From the NCBI RefSeq assembly GCF_019331695.1, contig NZ_JAHBBI010000002.1, positions 62,001-126,000 on the forward strand: a stretch of 64,000 nt of DNA. Reading direction: 5' to 3'. Made by a program: the position numbers and the translations under genes. Position 1 is the first letter of the stretch; every line of letters begins with the position of its first letter. Shown here one piece after another: positions 9,573-53,012 of the stretch. The notes below the pieces were generated by a model. It was not told the DNA's origin and searched no databases. It saw only the letters and a program-made list of their open reading frames with translations. The stretch comes from Bifidobacterium pluvialisilvae (lineage in GTDB: Bacteria; Actinomycetota; Actinomycetes; Actinomycetales; Bifidobacteriaceae).

Positions 9573-9941
9573 GTCATCCTGAGCGAAGCGTAGTGTCCTT
9601 TTGCCGTTCTGGAGGAGCGTGGTCCTTATCGTTCTGGAGGAGCGTAGTTCTTTTGTCATCCTGAGCGAAGGCCGCAGGCCGAAGTCGAAGGATCCTCTTC
9701 GCCACCTCAAGATCCTTCGACTCGCTACGCTCGCTCAGGATGACAAAAAGGGGAAGGCGGCCTTCGCTCAGGATGACAAAAAGGGAGGTCGGCCTTCGCT
9801 CGGGATGACAAAGGGAGAGGGTGGGCCTTCGCTTGGGATGACAGTGGAGAAAGGGGCTCCGGCCTTCGCTCGGGATGACATCTGGCTGACGCCATGTCCA
9901 ACGCGAGCAGAAGGGGGCTCCGGCCTTTACTTAGGATGACA
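9573..9941. repeat. Family A repeat cluster with iterated right ends
   Basis: The 690-bp gap between the ABC-F gene and the polysaccharide operon is largely made of family A repeat DNA. One full element (GTCATCCTGAGCGAAG at 9573 to CTCAGGATGACA near 9744) is followed by a ladder of partial right ends GGCCTTCGCT(C/T)(A/G)GGATGACA at about 9762, 9793, 9825, 9866 and 9926, each separated by 20-60 bp of purine-rich spacer. The ladder suggests slipped-strand or recombination amplification. No gene. Confidence 0.75.
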
Positions 9942-15150: not shown

Positions 15151-16356
15151 ATGAGGAAGACGAAGGTGGTGATGGTGCTGGAGTCCCAGGGCGGGACGCG
15201 CCGGCACGTCGTCGATCTGATCCGCGGACTCGACCAGGAACGGTTCGACGTGACGCTCATCCACGGCACATCACGGCTCGACGCATCATTCATCGAGGAC
15301 CTGCCCGACCTGCGGCACCGCGCCCGGCTGATCCCGTGCGACGCGCTCGTGCGCAGCATCAGCCCCCTGCGCGAGCTGGCCGCCCTGCGCCAGGTGCGCG
15401 CCGTGATCCGCGAGATCCGCCCCGACGTGGTGCACTGCCACAGCTCCAAGGCCGGCATCATCGGACGCCTCGCCGCCAGGCTCGAACGCACGCCGCTCGT
15501 CTTCTACACGCCGCACGCCTACTCGTTCATGGCCCCCGAGTTCTCCGGCGGGAAACGCATGGTGTTCACCGCGCTGGAACGCTGGTTCAGCCGCCACGCC
15601 ACCACGCTGACGTTCAACGTCTCGGCGGGGGAGAAGCGCGCCGCGCTCGCGGCCCGGCTCGACGAGCCCGGCAAGTTCCGCGTGATCGTCAACGGCATCC
15701 CCGACGTTCCCGTGCCGTCGCGCGCCGACGCCCGTGCGGCCCTCGGATTCGGCGGGCTCGGCATCCCCGATTATGCGCCGGTCGTGGGCGTGACCGCCAG
15801 ACTGGTCGAGCAGAAGGATCCGATGACGTTCGCGCGCATCGCCGCCGAGGTCGTCCGCCGCCGCCCCGACGTCCACTTCGTGTATATGGGCGACGGTCCG
15901 ATGGAATCCGACGTCCTCGCATACTGGCGTGGATGCGGCGACGCCGTGGCCTCACATACGCATGTGCTCGGCTACCGCGCCGACGCCGAGACCATGGTCG
16001 CCGCGTTCGACGTGTATCTGCTGACGTCGTTGTACGAGGGCATGCCGTATTCGCTCATCGAATCGCTGCGTGCCGGCGTACCCGTGGCGGCCACCGACGC
16101 GGTCGGCAACAACGAGGTCGTGAACCCCGGCATCAACGGCTCGCTGTTCCCCGTCGGTGACGCGGAGGCGGGCGCGGCCGCGGTGACGGCCCTGCTGGAC
16201 GACCCGCCGGGCCGCGATGTTACACGTGAAACATTCCTCCGACGGTTCCTCGCCTCGCAGATGGTGCGCGACATCGCCCGCCATTATCGCGGCGAACTGC
16301 TGCCCTCCGCGGCGGAACTGCGTTCGGAGGACGCCGTCAAGGAGGTCCGACGATGA
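15151..16356 (+). CDS. Family 4 glycosyltransferase
   Basis: A 401-residue GT-B fold retaining glycosyltransferase. The N-domain begins KVVMVLESQGGTRRHVVDLIRGL, with the acceptor-side Gly-rich loop, and contains DVVHCHSSKAGIIGR. The C-domain has GVTARLVEQKDPMTF, HVLGYRADAETMVAAFDV and the donor-binding EGMPYSLIE (E-x7-E) motif at about 300, followed by GVPVAATDAVGNNEVV. It is similar in layout to GalNAc- or glucosyl-transferases of exopolysaccharide loci; donor and linkage cannot be told. GGAGG lies eleven bases before the ATG at 15151. The stop overlaps the start of the fusion gene that follows. Confidence 0.9.
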   Translation: MRKTKVVMVLESQGGTRRHVVDLIRGLDQERFDVTLIHGTSRLDASFIEDLPDLRHRARLIPCDALVRSISPLRELAALRQVRAVIREIRPDVVHCHSSKAGIIGRLAARLERTPLVFYTPHAYSFMAPEFSGGKRMVFTALERWFSRHATTLTFNVSAGEKRAALAARLDEPGKFRVIVNGIPDVPVPSRADARAALGFGGLGIPDYAPVVGVTARLVEQKDPMTFARIAAEVVRRRPDVHFVYMGDGPMESDVLAYWRGCGDAVASHTHVLGYRADAETMVAAFDVYLLTSLYEGMPYSLIESLRAGVPVAATDAVGNNEVVNPGINGSLFPVGDAEAGAAAVTALLDDPPGRDVTRETFLRRFLASQMVRDIARHYRGELLPSAAELRSEDAVKEVRR

Positions 16357-18119
16357 TCATCATCAAGGCATGGTACCGGTTCACCGGCCTGCTGCTGAAG
16401 GCGCTGTACCGCGTCGTATACGGCCGGCACATGCGTTGGGGCAAGGCGTTCCACATGCGCCGCGGCTTCCAGGCCACCGTGGAGAACGGCGGCGAGATCG
16501 TCATCGGCGACAACGTGTTCTTCAACAACGGATGCGGCCTGCATGCACGCAGACGCATCGCCGTCGGCAGCGAGACCATTTTCGGCGAGAACGTGCACGT
16601 GTACGATCATAACCACCGGTTCGCCGACCCGTCCCTCGCCATCAAGGAGCAGGGATATTCCGAGGCGGCCGTGACCATCGGCCGCCATTGCTGGATCGGC
16701 AGCAACGTGACGATCCTCAAGGGCTCGACGATCGGCGACAACGCCGTCATCGGCGCCGGCTGCGTGATCTCCGGCGACGTGCCCGCCGACTCCGTCGTCC
16801 GTATGGACGCGACGTTCCACGTGGAACCCATCCGTCGCGACGGGGCGTCCGCCACGGTCGCCGATTCCTCCACGTCCCCTCAGACGAGGGGACCGTCGGC
16901 GAAGCCGGCCGGGGGAGAGGTCGAAACCTCCGCAGCAGCATCATCCCCGACCCGCGTGCTCGTGCTCGACACCGTCATGGACCGCGGCGGCGCCGAGACC
17001 ATGATGATGAACTACATGCGTCATATGGACCGAAGCAAGGTCACGTATGATTTCCTCGTCAACCGCGAGTACCGCGCCGCCTACGAGGACGAGATCGAGG
17101 CGATGGGTGGCCATATCTACCGCATGTGCCCGATGTATCCGCAGTATTTCGGCAGATACAAGCGTCAGATCCGCGACTTCCTGCGCAAACACCCCGAATA
17201 CCGCATCATCCATTCCAATCTTGAGGAGCGCAGCTATTTCGGCCTGCGCGAGGCCGCGAAGCTCGGCGTGCCCGTACGCATCGCGCACGCGCACAACCGT
17301 CCGGTCGGCTTCGACGTGAAGTCGGTCTTCCGCGAGTACTTCCGCTTCCGCCTGCCGAAATACGTGACGCATATGTTCGCGTGCGGCGAGGAGGCCGGTG
17401 ACTGGCTGTTCGGTGAGAGGAACCGTGGCCGCGTGATCCAGCAGCGCAACGCCATCGACACCGCGCAATACCGCTACGACCCGGCCGTCGCCGCCGCAGT
17501 GCGCGCCGAGATCGGCACCGGCGACGGCACGTTCGTCCTTGGCCATGTGGGCCGCTTCTTCCCGCAGAAGAACCACGAGTTCCTCATCGACATCTTCGCC
17601 GCGGTGCATCGCATGCGTCCGGACAGCGAACTGTGGCTGGTCGGCGGTGGCGAGCTTAACGACGAACTGAAGAACCGCATCCGCGCCAAGGTCGACGGAC
17701 TCGGCCTGCATGACGCCGTGCGCTTCCTCGGCGTGCGCGAGGACGTGGACCGTCTCATGCAGGGCATGGACGCGTTCGTGCTGCCAAGCCTGTTCGAGGG
17801 ACTGCCCGTCACGATGATTGAGGCGCAGTCCGCCGGCCTGCCGTGCACGATCTCCGACCGCGTGCCCGCCCAGTGCGACGTGACCGGCACCGTGCAGATC
17901 GTGCCGTTGGACGCCGAACCGGCCGAATGGGCGAGGCGCATCCTCGCCCAGGCCGAGGCGCCGAAGGTCGCCGACCGCACGCAGGGCCCTGAACTGGTGA
18001 CGAAGGCCGGCTTCGACATCGTCGCCAACGCCACGTGGCTGCAGAAGTTCTATCTGACGGCATTGGCGAAGGCGGAACGTTTGGCGGAACCGGCGAAGGC
18101 GGGCGGGAGCCGCGCATGA
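16353..18119 (+). CDS. Fusion: hexapeptide acetyltransferase + family 4 glycosyltransferase
   Basis: A 588-residue protein made of two normally separate enzymes. Residues 1-~160 are a left-handed beta-helix O-acetyltransferase (IVIGDNVFFNNGCGL, GRHCWIGSNVTILKGSTIG, GAGCVISGDVPAD). Residues ~197-588 are a complete GT4 (VLDTVMDRGGAETMMMNYM at its start, VGRFFPQKNHEFLIDIF, EGLPVTMIEAQSAGLP). The linker (about 172-195, STSPQTRGPSAKPAGGE) is encoded by DNA at 16874-16923 that matches the intergenic palindromic repeat found at 36010 (36 of 50 bases by hand alignment). So the fusion may have arisen by read-through of a repeat between two genes. GGAGG precedes the ATG. The GT half resembles the GT4 gene at 24326. 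Confidence 0.88.
   Translation: MIIIKAWYRFTGLLLKALYRVVYGRHMRWGKAFHMRRGFQATVENGGEIVIGDNVFFNNGCGLHARRRIAVGSETIFGENVHVYDHNHRFADPSLAIKEQGYSEAAVTIGRHCWIGSNVTILKGSTIGDNAVIGAGCVISGDVPADSVVRMDATFHVEPIRRDGASATVADSSTSPQTRGPSAKPAGGEVETSAAASSPTRVLVLDTVMDRGGAETMMMNYMRHMDRSKVTYDFLVNREYRAAYEDEIEAMGGHIYRMCPMYPQYFGRYKRQIRDFLRKHPEYRIIHSNLEERSYFGLREAAKLGVPVRIAHAHNRPVGFDVKSVFREYFRFRLPKYVTHMFACGEEAGDWLFGERNRGRVIQQRNAIDTAQYRYDPAVAAAVRAEIGTGDGTFVLGHVGRFFPQKNHEFLIDIFAAVHRMRPDSELWLVGGGELNDELKNRIRAKVDGLGLHDAVRFLGVREDVDRLMQGMDAFVLPSLFEGLPVTMIEAQSAGLPCTISDRVPAQCDVTGTVQIVPLDAEPAEWARRILAQAEAPKVADRTQGPELVTKAGFDIVANATWLQKFYLTALAKAERLAEPAKAGGSRA
16874..16923. repeat. Palindromic repeat (family B) inside a coding region
   Basis: The sequence GTCCCCTCAGACGAGGGGAC followed by CGTCGGCGAAGCCGGC and GGGGGAGAGG corresponds step by step to the intergenic family B element at 36010-36058 (GCTCCCTCTGATGAGGGAGC, TGTCGGCGGAGCTGAC, GGGGGAGGCC). 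The hairpin arms stay complementary. It is read in frame as the linker of the fusion protein at 16353. Confidence 0.65.
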
Positions 18120-19336
18120 GCCAGAGCCAATCCCGGTCCCTCCCGGCCGAAGCCCCGAACACGGGCCGCCGGCATCACCACCCGACACGCAAGGCCACGC
18201 AGCTGGCCCTGCGCCGCCGTGCCGCACGCGACAAGAACGTCGTGCTCGCATTGGTGCCCATCGTCGCCATCGTGGCGAAGATCATGGTCGCGTATGTGCT
18301 GCCGGACAAGTACTTCTACGACAACAACCGCATCGTGGGCATGTCCATCGACTCCGCCACCGTGGATGAGTGGGAGGGTACATATCGCGTTGCCGCCGAC
18401 CTGTTCAAGTCGCTGAACGTGTTCGGCTTCCGGACCATGCTCGACTGGTCGTTCACGCTCGGCGTCATCTTCACCATCCTGGTGTTTGTGATGGTCATCC
18501 GCGTGGACAGCCCCGACTTCCTCCAATCGGTGTTCATTCTGGCGGCGACGGGCCTGTTGAACATCTACGTGTTCAACATCGGCAAGGACATCATCCAGTT
18601 CGCGTTCTTCTTCGCCGTCTATATCATCCTCATTTTGCCGATCGACAGTTCGATACTGAAGATCGGCCTGAGCTGTGCGGTGCTGTATTACGAGAGCACG
18701 TTCTTCCGCGAATATTACGTGCTGATAGCCGCCCTGGTGCTGTTTGTGTTCGTGCTGCTTTCCGTGTTCCGCCTGAGCAGGGGCGATTTCAACGCGCCGA
18801 CCGTCGCCGCCATCTGCGTGATCTGCTTCCTGGGCATCTACGCGATAATGGTGGTCGCACAAGCCGTCATGCCGAGTGAATACCAGCAGATGATTGGTCT
18901 GCGTGCCGGCTACCTTACGGCCTTCGACGGCAGCGCCGATTCGCAGACGTTGATCAAGAACTGGATTCCAGGCGACGGCCTGCCGATCTTCATGGCGAAT
19001 TATCTCGTCAACGCCATACGCATGCTGCTGCCGGTCGAACTGATGGTCAAGGGCCTGTACTACCTGCCGTTCTTCTGCTTCCAATTGCTCATCACGTTCT
19101 ATATGATCCGTCTGCTGCGGCAGATCAACAAGGTGCGTGACAAGTCGCAGTTCCTGGCGTTGTGTGTGTTCATCGGCTATGCGTTGGCGTCGTTCATTTT
19201 CGAGCCTGACTTCGGTTCGTGGGTGAGACACGAGTCCGCCACATTCCCCGTATTGCATCTGCTGATTCTGAGCGGTAACCAGCGACTGCCGTTCTTTGCG
19301 CCGAAAAGCGACGACATCGTGGAAAGGGCGGTATGA
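18116..19336 (+). CDS. Multi-spanning membrane protein, candidate polysaccharide polymerase (EpsG/Wzy-like)
   Basis: A 406-residue integral membrane protein with a basic, His/Arg-rich cytoplasmic start (about 40 residues) and roughly nine or ten hydrophobic segments (VLALVPIVAIVAKIMVAYV; FTLGVIFTILVFVMVI; FAFFFAVYIILILPI; YVLIAALVLFVFVLLSVF; TVAAICVICFLGIYAIMVV; and others). It is the only protein in the locus of this type besides the flippase, so the role of polymerase joining repeat units on undecaprenyl carriers is inferred by elimination and by its similarity in layout to EpsG. No sequence motif proves this. ATG at 18116 overlaps the preceding stop (ATGA). Confidence 0.65.
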   Translation: MSQSQSRSLPAEAPNTGRRHHHPTRKATQLALRRRAARDKNVVLALVPIVAIVAKIMVAYVLPDKYFYDNNRIVGMSIDSATVDEWEGTYRVAADLFKSLNVFGFRTMLDWSFTLGVIFTILVFVMVIRVDSPDFLQSVFILAATGLLNIYVFNIGKDIIQFAFFFAVYIILILPIDSSILKIGLSCAVLYYESTFFREYYVLIAALVLFVFVLLSVFRLSRGDFNAPTVAAICVICFLGIYAIMVVAQAVMPSEYQQMIGLRAGYLTAFDGSADSQTLIKNWIPGDGLPIFMANYLVNAIRMLLPVELMVKGLYYLPFFCFQLLITFYMIRLLRQINKVRDKSQFLALCVFIGYALASFIFEPDFGSWVRHESATFPVLHLLILSGNQRLPFFAPKSDDIVERAV

Positions 19337-34172: not shown

Positions 34173-35771
34173 ATGACTAGTACCCCAAAACCGCTTGATT
34201 TCAACGATTCCGCGGCAAGCCAGCTGCGTCTGTACGACACGGCCACCCACAGCATCGCACCTTTCACGTCCATTCATCCCGGCGAAGTGGGCATCTACGT
34301 GTGCGGCGCCACCGTGCAAAGCTCGCCGCACGTCGGCCACATCCGCGCCGCCGTGGCGTTCGACGTCGTGCGCCGCTGGCTGCTGCGACTGGGATACAAG
34401 GTCACGTTCGTGCGCAACGTGACCGACATCGACGACAAGATCCTCGACAAGGCCCGCGCCGCAGGCCAACGCTGGTGGGAGCGCGCCTACATCTACGAGC
34501 GCGAATTCACCGCCGCATACGAGACACTCGGCGTGCTGCCGCCGACCTACGAGCCGCGCGCCACCGGCCACATGCTCGACATGATCGACCTCATCCAGCG
34601 CATCCTCGACAACGGCCACGCCTACGTCGTGCCCGGCCCCGACGGCAAGCCCAGCGGCAACGTCTACTTCGACGTGGCCAGCTGGCCCCGCTACGGCGAG
34701 CTGACGCATCAGGAGACCGGCACCAAGCCCGCCGCCGACGAAGCCGCCGCCATCGCCGACCGCATGGGCCCCAGCGTCGACGAGACCGGCCCCGACAAAT
34801 ACAACCCGGTCGACGCCGCCGACGCCTCGCCCGACAAGCACGACCCGCGCGACTTCGCCCTGTGGAAGGCCCCCAAGGACACCGACCCGCTCGACGCCCG
34901 CTGGCAGACCCCGTTCGGCGTGGGCCGCCCCGGCTGGCATCTCGAATGCTCCGCCATGAGCCACCGCTACCTCGGCGACGACTTCGACATCCACGGCGGC
35001 GGACTCGACCTGCGCTTCCCCCACCACGAGAACGAGACCGCGCAGTCCCGCGCCGCCGGCTGGGGATTCGCCCACCACTGGATGCACTCCGCATGGGTCA
35101 CCCAGAAGGGCGAGAAGATGAGCAAGTCGCTCGGCAACGGGCTCTCCGTGCCCACCGTGCTCGCCGAACACAGCGCCTGGGTGGTGCGTTACGCGCTCGC
35201 CTCCGTGCAGTACCGCTCCATGCTCGAATGGGGCGACCAGACGCTGAACGAGGCGCAAGCCGCCTACGACCGCGTCGCCAACTTCATCGAACGTGCGGCC
35301 GGCGCCATCGGCGAGCAGCCGTCGCGTGACGAGATCCAGGGCGTCGGCGTGGACGGACTGCCCGAGGACTTCGTCAATGCCATGAACGACGACATCAATG
35401 TGGCCGGGGCCGTCGCCGCCGTGTTCAGCGCCGTACGCGCCGGCAACACGCTGCTTTCCAAGCTCGAGGACGCCGCCGACACCGCCGCCGCCCGCGCCGA
35501 CATCCGCCGCCGGCTCGTCGCCGTGCGCGCCATGCTCGACACCCTCGGCCTCGACCCGCTCGCCGAGGAATGGTCCGCCGGCGGCTCCGACGGCGAAGGC
35601 GACAAGGAGCATGACGTGCTCGACACGCTCATCGCCGAACAGCTCGAGGCCCGCGCCGAAGCACGGAAGAACAAGGACTACGCTCGCGCCGACGCCATCC
35701 GCGACGCCCTCGCCAACGCCGGCGTGGCGATTGAGGATACCGCCTCCGGTTCGACTTGGTCTCTGAAGTGA
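34173..35771 (+). CDS. cysS: Cysteine--tRNA ligase
   Basis: A 532-residue class I aminoacyl-tRNA synthetase that charges tRNA-Cys. Seen: YVCGATVQSSPHVGHIRAAV, with the Zn-binding Cys and the HIGH-type motif (HVGH); VTDIDDKI; GWHLECSAMS, with further Zn ligands; HHENETAQS; and KMSKSLGN, the KMSKS loop. The C-terminal helical anticodon region is present. At 532 residues it is longer than E. coli CysS (461) because of an insertion at about 180-235 (AADEAAAIADRMGPSVDE ... PDKHDPRDF), usual for bifidobacteria. ATG at 34173 is kept; no clear ribosome site is seen, so it may be leaderless or weakly initiated. A strong terminator follows. Confidence 0.97.
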   Translation: MTSTPKPLDFNDSAASQLRLYDTATHSIAPFTSIHPGEVGIYVCGATVQSSPHVGHIRAAVAFDVVRRWLLRLGYKVTFVRNVTDIDDKILDKARAAGQRWWERAYIYEREFTAAYETLGVLPPTYEPRATGHMLDMIDLIQRILDNGHAYVVPGPDGKPSGNVYFDVASWPRYGELTHQETGTKPAADEAAAIADRMGPSVDETGPDKYNPVDAADASPDKHDPRDFALWKAPKDTDPLDARWQTPFGVGRPGWHLECSAMSHRYLGDDFDIHGGGLDLRFPHHENETAQSRAAGWGFAHHWMHSAWVTQKGEKMSKSLGNGLSVPTVLAEHSAWVVRYALASVQYRSMLEWGDQTLNEAQAAYDRVANFIERAAGAIGEQPSRDEIQGVGVDGLPEDFVNAMNDDINVAGAVAAVFSAVRAGNTLLSKLEDAADTAAARADIRRRLVAVRAMLDTLGLDPLAEEWSAGGSDGEGDKEHDVLDTLIAEQLEARAEARKNKDYARADAIRDALANAGVAIEDTASGSTWSLK

Positions 35772-35793
35772 GGTAACGGGACACCGGAATAAC

Positions 35794-35839
35794 GAAATGG
35801 CCGAACGACGGATGTGTCGTTCGGCCATTTCGTTTTTTG
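35794..35839 (+). terminator. Intrinsic terminator of cysS
   Basis: CGAAATGGCCGAACGAC (35794-35810) pairs perfectly with 35817-35833 around a 6-nt loop and is followed by TTTTTT. Confidence 0.95.
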
Positions 35840-35859
35840 GGGGTATACGTCTTGTCTTC

Positions 35860-35992
35860 TGTCATCCTGAGCGGGGATTGCGCGTTTGTCATCCTGAGCG
35901 GAGGGCTTGGCCCGGAGTCGAAGGATCTTGTGGCCTGTGTGGGGATTGGAGATCCTTCGGCTTCGCCGCAAGCGGCTCCGCTCAGGATGACA
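35860..35992. repeat. Family A palindromic repeat, copy 4
   Basis: Begins TGTCATCCTGAGCGGGG, has a second left end at about 35888 (GTCATCCTGAGCGGAGG), inner arms TCGAAGGATC / GATCCTTCGG, and ends CGCTCAGGATGACA. It is almost the same as copy 5 at 39002, including the unique centre (GTGTGGGGATTGGA), as part of a segmental duplication. Confidence 0.85.
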
Positions 35993-36009
35993 GGGGGGTG
36001 GGTTTTCTC

Positions 36010-36186
36010 GGCTCCCTCTGATGAGGGAGCTGTCGGCGGAGCTGACTGAGGGGGAGGCCGCGGTAAAGACAATGTCGCCGTGGGTGACTCCGTTGGGTGG
36101 AGTCGCCCACGGCGACACTTGGTTGTTCGGGTCTCTCCCTCCGTCACGCCTGACGGCGTGACACCTCCCTCGTCAGAGGGAGGCGG
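36010..36186. repeat. Family B repeat pair around a terminator
   Basis: GGCTCCCTCTGATGAGGGAG (from 36010) with TGTCGGCGGAGCTGAC, and in the opposite sense GTCTCTCCCTCCGTCACGCC (36131) ... CTCCCTCGTCAGAGGGAG (36164-36181). Between them lies the hairpin at 36073-36117. The whole unit recurs at 39122-39300. Confidence 0.8.
36073..36117 (-). terminator. Terminator of the beta-helix surface-protein gene
   Basis: TGTCGCCGTGGGTGACTCC (36073-36091) pairs with GGAGTCGCCCACGGCGACA (36099-36117), with one G-T-type mismatch; on the minus strand it is followed by TTGTCTTT. Identical stem at 39187-39231 after the paralogous gene. Confidence 0.85.
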
Positions 36187-36195
36187 GGGTGGGGC

Positions 36196-38781
36196 TTACG
36201 CCCTGCGGCGGCGGAGGGCCACGGCGATGCCGCCGATGGCGAGCAGGGCGATCGCGGCGGCGGAGATGCCGGCGATTGCGGTGCCGGTCTTGCTCAGCTG
36301 GCTTGTGCCCGTCGTGCCGTTCGCGTTCGTGGTGGTGCCACTGCTCGGCGTGGTCGTGGTCGGCTTGGTGCTCGGGTTCGTGCCAGGCTTGTCGCTCGGC
36401 TCCGGGTTCGGGGCCGGCTTCTCGGCCTTCGTCAGGGTGATGGTCGCGGTCGCGCTGACCGTATCGTCGGTCGTGCCGTCCTTGGTGGCGGTGAACGTCA
36501 GCTTGAAGTCGCCTTCTTCGCCGTTCTTGATGGCCTCGTTCAGCTTGGCGAGCTGATCCTCGTCAAGCTTCACCGTGTAGCCTTCCACATTCACCGACGG
36601 GTTGACGAGCTTCGTGGCGGCATCGGCCGTCAGTTCGCCCTTCGCCACGTCGTACGTGACCTTTTCGTTGCCCAGCGTCAGCACAGCCTTCTTGACGCCG
36701 AACGTGCCGTCCTCGTTCTTCACCAGGCCGGAGCCTTCCACCACGTACTCAGACTTCGGGGCCACGGTGAAGGTGCCGCCGGAGATCTGCGCATTGACGA
36801 GATCCTCGGCGAGCGCACCCTTGAACGTGCCGCCGGAGACCTTGACTTCGACCTTGTTGTCCTGGCCCTCGGTGAGCGCTCCGGTGTACTGGCCGATTGT
36901 CTTCTGCTCGCCGGTCGCCGTGAACGTGCCGCCGTTGATGGTGAGCTGGCCCACGTTTGCGCCGTCGGTGTCCTTGTCGACGCTGCCGCCGCCGTTCCAG
37001 ATGACGATGCCCTTCTCCGTGGTCGCCGAGAACTCGCCGCCGTTGATGGTGGTCTTGTTCCAGTTGAACACTGCTGCGGAGGTGCCCTTGACGGTGCCGC
37101 CGTTGATGGTCAGTTCGCCGTAGGAGTCGTTCTTGATGTAGTTGCCGCCCTCGAACGTGCCGCCGTTGATGGTCAGCGTGGCGTTCTTCCCGTTCGCCGG
37201 CTTGCCGGAGTACCAGCCGTTGTCGATCAGCGACGAGTAGCTGGCGTGCGAGCCGTCGGACTTGAGCAGCTGGACCGTCGTGCCTTCGTTGATGGTTATG
37301 TCGCCATGGTTGAGGAGCGTGTAGTAGGTGTTGTCCTTGGTGCCGGTCTCCTTGGAACGTTTGAACGTGCCGCCCTCCAGCGTGGCCGTGGCGCCTTCCT
37401 CGTTGCTGAGTGCGGCCTTCTGGTGCGTCACGTTGTCGACGACGCCGGTCTTCTTGGCCGAGGAGTCCTTAATGGTCAGCGTGCCGTTGTTGGTGATGGT
37501 GTGGCCGGCCTTGTTGGTCAGCGTGTGGCCCGCGAGATCCAACGTGATGGTCTTGCCGGCCGGGATGATGACGTCCTCGGTCACGTTCTGCAGCAGCGTG
37601 ACGGTGGTCGCCCCGGCCTCGATGGCCTTGGCGACGGAGGAATACGCCTTGCCGTCCTGATCGGTGACGTAGGTGGAAACGCCGTTGTAGGTGTACTTCG
37701 TCTCCTCACCGAACGTGTTGTTCTGGACGGTCAGGCCGCCTTCGGTGACGTAGCCGCCCATCAGGACGCCGACGAAGGCGTCAAGTTCGTTGCTCGTGAC
37801 CTTCAGGCCGTCGTTCGGGCCCTGCTGCGGCCAGACGCTGTAGGAGACGGCCGCATAACCCTCAGCCGTGTTGCCGTCGATGACCGTGTTCTTGGTGGCG
37901 GTGACGGCGAACGCGTAGGTGCGGGACGCGTCGGCGGAAAGACCGGTCCCGTTCTTCACCGTGTTGCCGGAGATCGTCGTGTCGACGATGCCGTAGGAGC
38001 CGGCCTGCGTGTTGCCGTTGCCCACCACGAACATCATCGAACCGGACGTGCCCTCGCCGGACTTCGGGCCGCTGGTCACGGTGTTGTCCGCGATCGTGGT
38101 GCCCGTGATCGGCAGGGTGCCGTTGCCGATGATGTTCACGCCCACGGCGGAGTTGTTGACGACCTGCCCGAGCTTGAACGTGTTGCCCTTGATGGACGTA
38201 TTCGTGGCGCCGTTCTCCAGCCACACGGAGCTCGGCTGCCAGTCCTTGTTCTTCGAGGCGCCCGTCGCCGGGTCACCGGCTGCAATCGTGAACGTGTTGT
38301 CGGTGATCGTCACGCCGGTGGCCTTGCCGCTCACGATAACGTTCTGCGCGTTCGTGTTGGTGGCCGGGTCAAGCGTGAAGGACACGCCCTTCACCGTCAC
38401 GCCGGAGGCGTTGATGCGCAGGGAGCCCGCGAAGGTGACATCCTTGGCCGCAGTGATGGTGACGCCCTCGTACGTGTTGGCGATAGACAGGCGCGCATCG
38501 GCGCCGACGGATTCGTTGATGGTGACCGTCTTGTCGTCGGCCTTCGCGGCCGCGGCGAGTGCGTCGTTGAACGAGTCGAAGCTCTGGCCGTTGGCGGTGA
38601 ACGCGCCGGCAGTGGCCTTCGCGCTCGCGGCCGCCACGGTCGTATTCGTCGTCGACGGTTCCGCCGCATTCGCCATGGGTGTGATGAAGGGGGCTGCCAG
38701 AGTGATGGCCGCCAGCCCCGCTATTGCCAGACGCGACGCCAGAACGCCGCACGAAGTCGATATGGAAATATGGTTTCTCAT
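36196..38781 (-). CDS. Large sortase-anchored surface protein with parallel beta-helix repeats
   Basis: An 861-residue cell-wall protein. Signal peptide to about residue 40 (LAIAGLAAITLAAPFITPMANA). Residues ~60-330 carry PbH1-like rungs (VTIKDNTF-type: GVTITDNTFTIAAGD, TSIKGNTFKLG, TTISGNTVKNG), then a rung with PAGKTITLDLAGHTLTNKAG, then NGGTF-type rungs (LTINGGTFEGGNYI, LTINGGTVKG, TTINGGEFSA) up to about 690. A beta-sandwich-like segment and a Pro/Ser/Thr wall-spanning stretch (PNPEPSDKPGTNPSTKP) lead to the sorting signal LSKTG, a helix and the RRRRA tail. AAGGAGAGG precedes the ATG. Paralogue of the next gene. Such helices often bind or cut glycans, but no catalytic site is recognised. 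Confidence 0.85.
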   Translation of the reverse strand: MRNHISISTSCGVLASRLAIAGLAAITLAAPFITPMANAAEPSTTNTTVAAASAKATAGAFTANGQSFDSFNDALAAAAKADDKTVTINESVGADARLSIANTYEGVTITAAKDVTFAGSLRINASGVTVKGVSFTLDPATNTNAQNVIVSGKATGVTITDNTFTIAAGDPATGASKNKDWQPSSVWLENGATNTSIKGNTFKLGQVVNNSAVGVNIIGNGTLPITGTTIADNTVTSGPKSGEGTSGSMMFVVGNGNTQAGSYGIVDTTISGNTVKNGTGLSADASRTYAFAVTATKNTVIDGNTAEGYAAVSYSVWPQQGPNDGLKVTSNELDAFVGVLMGGYVTEGGLTVQNNTFGEETKYTYNGVSTYVTDQDGKAYSSVAKAIEAGATTVTLLQNVTEDVIIPAGKTITLDLAGHTLTNKAGHTITNNGTLTIKDSSAKKTGVVDNVTHQKAALSNEEGATATLEGGTFKRSKETGTKDNTYYTLLNHGDITINEGTTVQLLKSDGSHASYSSLIDNGWYSGKPANGKNATLTINGGTFEGGNYIKNDSYGELTINGGTVKGTSAAVFNWNKTTINGGEFSATTEKGIVIWNGGGSVDKDTDGANVGQLTINGGTFTATGEQKTIGQYTGALTEGQDNKVEVKVSGGTFKGALAEDLVNAQISGGTFTVAPKSEYVVEGSGLVKNEDGTFGVKKAVLTLGNEKVTYDVAKGELTADAATKLVNPSVNVEGYTVKLDEDQLAKLNEAIKNGEEGDFKLTFTATKDGTTDDTVSATATITLTKAEKPAPNPEPSDKPGTNPSTKPTTTTPSSGTTTNANGTTGTSQLSKTGTAIAGISAAAIALLAIGGIAVALRRRRA

Positions 38782-39121: not shown

Positions 39122-39300
39122 TCGGCTCCCTCTGATGAGGGAGCTGTCAGCGGAGCTGACTGAGGGAGAGACTGCGATATAGAAAATGTCGCCGTGGGTG
39201 ACTCCGTTGGGTGGAGTCGCCCACGGCGACATTGTGGTGTTCGGGTCTCTCCCTCCGTCACGCCTGACGGCGTGACACCTCCCTCGTCAGAGGGAGGCGG
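39122..39300. repeat. Family B repeat pair, second copy of the duplicated unit
   Basis: Same order and sequence as 36010-36186: GGCTCCCTCTGATGAGGGAG, TGTCAGCGGAGCTGAC, terminator hairpin, then GTCTCTCCCTCCGTCACGCC and CTCCCTCGTCAGAGGGAG. Confidence 0.8.
39187..39231 (-). terminator. Terminator of the second beta-helix surface-protein gene
   Basis: Same stem as at 36073-36117; on the minus strand the hairpin is followed by TTTTCTAT. Confidence 0.87.
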
Positions 39301-52796: not shown

Positions 52797-53012
52797 GGAA
52801 TCGGCCTTTGGCCGATGCGGTGTTTTTTAGCGGACTGACGTCCGCGGTCTCTCCCTCCGTCACGGCTTCGCCGTGCCACCTCCCTCGTCAGAGGGAGGCC
52901 CAAAGGGCACTGGCTCCCTCTGACGAGGGAGCTGTCGAGCGTCAGCGAGACTGAGGGAGAGAACGCGACCGCAAGGTCGCCGAGAACACAGCATCGGCCA
53001 AAGGCCGATTCC
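52797..53012. repeat. Nested inverted-repeat element containing family B repeats
   Basis: Outer arms of 22 bp (GGAATCGGCCTTTGGCCGATGC, 52797-52818) are perfectly inverted at 52991-53012. Inside, CTCCCTCGTCAGAGGGAG (52880-52897) is inverted at 52914-52931, and TCTCCCTC (52849) is inverted at 52953. The TTTTTT at 52823-52828 after the first hairpin makes the left arm a likely terminator for the DUF3039 gene. No coding content. Confidence 0.8.

Follow-up and report, generated by a model that had tools for sequence, protein, structure and literature searches.

How a palindromic repeat came to lie inside the coding sequence of a bifunctional enzyme is the question raised by a locus in a 64,000-nucleotide stretch of the Bifidobacterium pluvialisilvae genome (contig NZ_JAHBBI010000002.1, positions 62,001 to 126,000; hereafter the window). 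One open reading frame (ORF) of this stretch (16353..18119, forward strand, 588 aa) joins an acetyltransferase (AT) and a glycosyltransferase (GT), as judged from family matches and fused orthologs, and the repeat lies in the linker between them (about aa 161-197, 16833..16943, forward strand, without predicted secondary structure). In a preliminary description of the locus, a repeat was held to have lain between AT and GT while these were still separate genes, to have lost its stop codons, to have become the linker and thereby to have made the fusion. This interpretation is borne out in part: the linker does derive from the repeat, and some relatives have the halves as separate genes, but the repeat does not appear to be the cause of the fusion. 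Instead, it most likely arrived, more than once, in an AT-GT gene that was fused already, as an in-frame linker decoration resembling the repetitive extragenic palindromic (REP) elements.

A repeat copy in the AT-GT linker

The AT-GT linker holds a copy of a scattered palindromic repeat within its reading frame. The covariance model R1, built from 27 copies of the window genome (G000), three of them from the window and the linker copy excluded, matches the linker on the forward strand at 16873..16918 (40.1 bits, E 2.9e-9 in the window), where the repeat is read as TSPQTRGPSAKPAGG(E). The copy is one of at least 144 genome-wide R1 matches, with a genome-wide E of its own of 1.2e-7. The gapless alignment of the linker to the repeat at 36010, initially counted as 36 of 50 identities, is real, although it had been placed one base out: the match covers 16873-16922 with 35/50 identities, and displaced by that base it falls to 19/50. 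The complementary hairpin arms reported in the same description are likewise present. Both hairpins are intact, and the arm GTCCCCTC/GAGGGGAC is a perfect 8 bp: at pairs 2 and 3, counted from its outer end, both bases depart from the consensus and yet pair with each other. Given its composition, the linker copy has an RNA fold of no unusual stability (z -1.19), one that 24 of 200 shuffles equal.

The linkers of the relatives are GC-rich and of low complexity, and a linker of alanine, proline and glycine might therefore look like the repeat without sharing its origin. The chance of this is negligible, and the explanation was rejected on the R1 E-value together with the position and recoding tests. 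With the known repeat regions and the linker left out, no more than 29/50 is reached at any of the 125,768 other positions of the two strands, and when the linker peptide was recoded with synonymous codons 20,000 times, 35/50 was never attained, the maximum being 34. Ten scanned fused loci without the repeat gave no match above 8.7 bits.

Structure and distribution of the repeat

In the aligned copies the repeat consists of two hairpins, GGCTCCCTC..GAGGGAGC and GTC[..]GAC, followed by TGAGGG; the unit measures 43-50 bp in the model alignment, and three subtypes can be sorted by eye. Its secondary structure is conserved. The hairpins are paired in 97.9% of cells compared with 86.7% in shuffles, and the covariation score is 0.295 compared with 0.092, values as high being found in none of 500 shuffles in either case, while 6 of the 15 pairs are altered on both sides, which 7 of 500 shuffles equal. 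Reading frames through the 27 copies of R1 are often open already (26, 16 and 23 copies for the reverse frames, and 5, 16 and 10 for the forward frames), which speaks against a loss of stop codons from the repeat; the frame used in the window linker is the forward frame that is open in 10 of the 27.

A 66-base query of the repeat found 48 matching places in the window genome, and R1 finds at least 144 at E <= 0.01, of which 11 were placed in genes. The repeat is a dispersed family with many copies outside genes, though an intergenic position was not established for each of the other 133. At E <= 0.001, R1 gives at least 150 matches in B. leontopitheci, at least 150 in B. stellenboschense and 70 in B. 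jacchi, and with stricter filters and no more than 51 candidates scored per genome, at E <= 1e-6 there are matches in at least 25 of 121 sampled genomes of the family, in 2 of 16 genera. Outside the AT-GT ORF the window carries six strong copies of 42.8-71.2 bits, and below the linker copy the next match scores 15.7 bits. The copy originally compared with the linker (36010..36055, forward strand, 68.4 bits) is adjoined by one in the opposite orientation (36134..36184, reverse, 47.7 bits). Further copies are found at 39124..39169 (forward, 71.2 bits), 39248..39298 (reverse, 47.7 bits) and 52850..52899 (reverse, 42.8 bits), the last being opposite in orientation to that at 52912..52960 (forward, 58.3 bits).

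At gathering scores, Rfam gives two tRNAs only in the window; sub-threshold matches at the inverted repeats at 35700-36300 were to unrelated models, mostly microRNA or snoRNA and one sRNA, and were discarded. A second repeat family (GTCATCCTGAGCG...TCGAAGGATCT) is present at 9651-9748 and 35860-35995 of the window. It is apparently read in frame as well, by eye, as VILSERSESKDL in PglX of the window genome (L234, minus-strand ORF) and as VISTERSERRNL in the EcfA-EcfA' linker of G101 (L343).

Fused and unfused genes in related genomes

Sets of 99, 9 and 189 genomes, together with GTDB contigs, were searched and yielded 25 genomes with both halves, that of the window included and the GT being at least 67% identical; only rows with an AT were counted, which excluded G006 and the GT rows beyond it. 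AT and GT are fused in 17 of the 25 (G000, G003, G004, G008, G020, G101, G103, G108, G131, G134, G136, G141, G149, G159, G160, G190 and probably G005). B. catulorum (G005) counts as no more than a probable fusion, an assembly break being located inside its linker (C47 of 10,286 bases; C88 of 68,397). Seven genomes have unfused, overlapping genes without a repeat (G001, G002, G007, G116, G124, G140 and G146). In the remaining one, B. leontopitheci (G137), the unfused genes are separated by the repeat and about 100 more bases, in the order AT stop TAA, repeat, GT. The halves are accordingly separate genes in 8 of 25 genomes, as had been supposed, and separate halves with a repeat between them, the arrangement looked for as a precursor, are found in B. 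leontopitheci only. Fusions with unrelated linkers, proposed to be sought in distant genera, were found only within the Bifidobacteriaceae.

The loci of 20 of the 25 genomes were scanned by R1 with filters off, and G002, G108, G124, G140 and G146 were judged by their junction sequence. In-frame copies are absent from most of the orthologous fusions: the linker is occupied in 6 of 17 (G134 49.5 bits, G005 41.4, G000 40.1, G004 32.2, G190 26.7 and G008 21.9) and free of the repeat in 11, ten by the R1 scan and G108 by a linker identical to that of G103. B. leontopitheci has a match of 55.8 bits between the genes and another of 43.3 bits within GT, and the remaining 13 scanned loci show nothing above 8.7 bits. 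The linker repeats run forward in G000, G004, G134 and G190 and in reverse in G005 and G008, and they differ between genomes in reading frame and subtype as well; the copies in B. saimiriisciurei (32.2 bits) and B. primatium (21.9 bits) are decayed. In G003 the genes are fused through a short linker without the repeat, where an in-frame Met is followed by PSAPLRVL. The separate GT of G116 apparently begins MPEHSPLRV, corresponding to this Met, which suggests that here, at least, the genes fused with no repeat involved.

Further repeat units were also seen. The insert in the GT domain of B. leontopitheci (L064 2846-2890) comprises one clean unit and, by eye, two decayed ones, and on the GT side of the assembly break in B. 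catulorum (L042 end, L040 start) a repeat-like unit forms a tandem array with an open frame, which scores only 20 bits with R1.

In-frame copies in other genes

Copies of the repeat lie in frame inside conserved genes and are missing from many of the orthologs. The 144 copies of the window genome were tested for open, coding frames on both flanks, and the candidates were checked against Pfam and NCBIfam. In-gene copies were accepted by profile matches, since the codon-usage test alone was not trusted: it was positive on both flanks in some frame for 25 of 144 copies, antisense frames outscore the fatty acid synthase frame, and a flank score is negative for four accepted copies, of which three are in PglX and one is in EcfA-EcfA'. 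Among the 46 copies at the loci of the 66-base query, none had clearly coding flanks on both sides, L087 and L093 being weakly positive. In total, 11 of 144 copies are in frame in seven genes of G000. Beside the one in AT-GT, ten are distributed over six others: one each in LysA, AmmB-AmmA, BREX-1 PglZ and EcfA-EcfA'-EcfT, two in the type I fatty acid synthase and four in BREX-1 PglX. At three of the seven genes the repeat sits at a junction of fused domains. All profiles of the fatty acid synthase score under their curated cut-offs, and its second copy was placed by the open frame and the codon score only. The proteins with an in-frame repeat may still be made and active, as their open frames and conserved domains would allow. 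The count omits places that are open in frame but do not show homology on both flanks (for instance two in L194 and those in L248, L245 and L229). The BREX-1 defense genes (L234, L233, G000 C17) contain 5 of the 11 in-frame copies, four in PglX and one in PglZ.

Three of these genes were followed across relatives, with repeat scans made partly with default filters, by which weak matches can be lost. LysA was matched in 29 of 30 genomes and has the repeat in a variable loop in four (G000, G003, G159 and G190). For AmmB-AmmA, matched in 19 of 30, the halves are in one frame in 17 (not in G190 and G159). Its linker contains a near-consensus repeat of 66.1 bits in G000 and weak matches in G004 (16.9 bits) and G008 (18.7 bits), and no repeat was found in that of G005, the sister of G000 in the rpoB tree. 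The Ecf fusion was matched in 26 of 30 genomes at E <= 1e-100, and the EcfA-EcfA' linker is in frame in all 26, seven of which have the repeat (G000, G001, G002, G004 and G008, and more weakly G005 with 22.0 bits and G190 with 21.5 bits), in both orientations; copies are also found at the second Ecf junction of G004 and G008. As AmmB-AmmA and EcfA-EcfA' are fused in relatives without the repeat, it is most simply the later arrival there, and AT-GT probably went through the same sequence of events. A single protein of the window genome comprises the three domains EcfA, EcfA' and EcfT; in the relatives, it was the EcfA-EcfA' linker that was examined (L193, L318-L346).

Phylogeny of the fused genes

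With G006 as its root, the AT+GT tree has as first branches the fusions G160, G020 and G149, followed by G003, all four being free of the repeat; the seven rows with overlapping genes group together (support 78/61), and B. leontopitheci falls inside a clade of 13 otherwise fused rows (91/94). The rpoB tree, whose bootstrap is not fully settled, unites B. leontopitheci with B. jacchi and five fused repeat-free species (100/99). The approximately unbiased (AU) test rejects a clade of the window and B. saimiriisciurei, which share the forward orientation (p 0.002), and also a clade of B. primatium and B. catulorum, which share the reverse one (p 0.002). Both rejections imply that the linker of this group has repeatedly changed, or that it once had a forward-reverse pair like that at 36010/36134.

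Origin of the linker repeat

Neighboring genes of an operon can fuse by the loss of an overlapped stop codon. AT-GT resembles such a fusion in that the genes overlap in 7 genomes and are fused in 17, and differs from a plain one in that the linker also has the repeat in 6 of these 17. AT and GT would originally have been neighbors in a tightly packed polysaccharide operon, as they still overlap in 7 of 25 genomes and as the window ORF still has ATGA overlaps with both neighbors, and would have become fused, once or more often, when the overlapped stop was lost, with no repeat involved. The new linker, whose pLDDT in the window protein is below 50 over aa 161-196, may have been disordered and tolerant of insertions, and in several lineages, that of the window among them, the two-hairpin REP-like element would later have entered it in frame, presumably by transposition, either independently or with repeated turnover. 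The insert is predicted from its frame to be translated as about 15 residues and is probably near-neutral for the enzyme. AT-GT would then be an instance of something more general, as six other genes of the genome also have this element in frame.

Several observations weigh against a late insertion into an existing fusion. A REP mobilized by a REP-associated tyrosine transposase (RAYT) would be expected to have a Y1 transposase (PF01797) in its genome, and none was found in G000, one of the nine genomes searched having a match (G116). Exact insertion ends and target duplications were sought in LysA, AmmB-AmmA and EcfA-EcfA', and none could be defined, the flanking linkers being hypervariable. 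The AT+GT and rpoB trees conflict, which suggests operon transfer, and they need several fusions, or a fusion plus a fission; the support for the unfused B. leontopitheci among fused rows is 91/94, and the rpoB bootstrap is unsettled. The AU test, furthermore, does not reject a grouping of B. leontopitheci and the overlapping-gene rows (p 0.098, or 0.090 once G006 is included), a tree that has every fused row on one side (p 0.098), one clade of all repeat-bearing rows (p 0.323) or one clade of the six fused repeat rows (p 0.116). As a separate observation, G116, with the only Y1 transposase match of the nine genomes (L317), gave one repeat match at E <= 1e-6.

The unrejected AU topologies with one repeat-bearing clade and with B. 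leontopitheci beside the unfused rows are also what the capture of an intergenic repeat would allow, and B. leontopitheci has exactly the layout that this account requires of the ancestor (AT stop TAA, the repeat at 55.8 bits, GT). This is the only such layout, however, and it groups among fused rows in the AT+GT tree, albeit with the p of 0.098 given above, as well as with fused repeat-free species in the rpoB tree (100/99). With 11 of 17 fusions lacking the repeat, 7 of 8 unfused pairs overlapping and the linker copies differing in orientation, frame and subtype, capture appears unlikely. Nor do further cases favor an origin of the bifunctional enzyme by exaptation of the repeat: G003 is fused without it, AmmB-AmmA and EcfA-EcfA' are fused without it in relatives and carry it in some species, and in LysA it occupies a loop. 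It is also unlikely that the repeat is retained for a function beyond that of a tolerated insert, such as an mRNA hairpin, pausing or domain spacing. The hairpin arms are preserved in the window copy and the linker is occupied in several species, but most of the fused genomes do without the repeat, the copies of B. saimiriisciurei and B. primatium have decayed, and the RNA fold is of ordinary stability.

A fission in B. leontopitheci, in which the repeat and a stop codon would have entered the linker of a fused ancestor and split the gene, would supplement a late insertion rather than compete with it, and stands at slightly less than an even chance. The species sits with fused rows in both trees, its GT has a further in-frame copy of the repeat, and upstream of its AT the sequence reads ACGATGATAC, compatible with an ATGA overlap, yet its AT-GT junction consists of the repeat and about 100 bases. 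On the other hand, the stretch beyond the repeat is, by eye, unlike a decayed linker, one half may have been replaced by transfer, and the AU test does not reject a place for the species beside the overlapping-gene rows.

Relation to known palindromic repeats

The closest parallel in the literature appears to be the Rickettsia palindromic elements (RPE), described as short palindromic repeats that are both intergenic and in frame in conserved protein genes, with a Wolbachia counterpart indicated by a cited title (PMC10969869, PMC2229807). The Bifidobacterium repeat shares these features as described there, and differs in its host, in its size of 43-50 bp and in its two hairpins, the RPE being given as 105-146 bp long (PMC2229807); the two are likened by description and not by sequence. 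By analogy, the system may work like RPE decoration, and membership in an RPE family is not claimed. Intragenic REPs of the GTAG/CGTC families are reported as palindromes of 20-40 bp, mostly intergenic and in several species also found within some genes (PMC3733652). In being small, mostly intergenic and partly intragenic palindromes they resemble the Bifidobacterium repeat. The latter differs from them in that no GTAG or CGTC tag is seen by eye at the ends of the A1 consensus and that no Y1 transposase was found in G000, and the main text of PMC3733652 makes no mention of Bifidobacterium or Actinobacteria. The available accounts describe translated palindromic repeats for Rickettsia, Wolbachia and several species that are rich in REPs or bear miniature inverted-repeat transposable elements (PMC10969869, PMC2229807, PMC3733652), and the listings of a literature search contained no paper on such repeats in Bifidobacterium.

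On balance, it seems fairly likely that a REP-like element of Bifidobacterium repeatedly enters genes in frame, favoring junctions of fused domains and disordered loops, that it lengthens linkers, and that it coincided once with the resplitting of a fused enzyme, which would make it an RPE-like linker-rebuilding system outside the Rickettsiales. In a gut commensal, the occupied and unoccupied sites of related species show how short palindromic repeats turn into protein. The EcfA-EcfA' linker, in frame in all 26 genomes examined and carrying the repeat in 7 of them, makes it directly testable whether inserts of this kind are neutral, help the protein or drive fusion. The locus also cautions against assuming that a repeat found at the joint of a fusion has caused it. 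If the fission in B. leontopitheci is true, the element could undo a fusion as well as lengthen one.

The AT-GT protein and its neighboring genes

The AT half (aa 1-160, 16353..16832, forward strand) is assigned by family matches to the hexapeptide-repeat family. Its best NCBIfam match is the WbbJ-like PRK09677 (aa 21-149, under the curated cut-off), and a hexapeptide-repeat Pfam match falls at aa 107-141. The GT half (about aa 200-588, 16950..18116, forward strand), delimited by family matches and an AlphaFold2 model, is a group-1/family-4 glycosyltransferase, with matches within aa 212-531. In the AlphaFold2 model, calculated with an alignment of 13 fused proteins as input, the GT half is mostly well predicted and the AT half poorly (block predicted local distance difference test, pLDDT, 34-63), and the linker at aa 161-196 has a pLDDT below 50 and no structure. 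A tblastn search against plasmids gave no record that covered 80% of the query. Upstream lies a GT-like ORF, named by eye (15151..16356, forward strand), and downstream an ORF at 18116..19336 (forward strand), taken here from the ATG at 18116, which the mechanical ORF list begins at a GTG at 18035. Both junctions of the AT-GT ORF with its neighbors are ATGA overlaps, one between the upstream stop and the AT-GT start and the other between the AT-GT stop and the downstream ATG at 18116.

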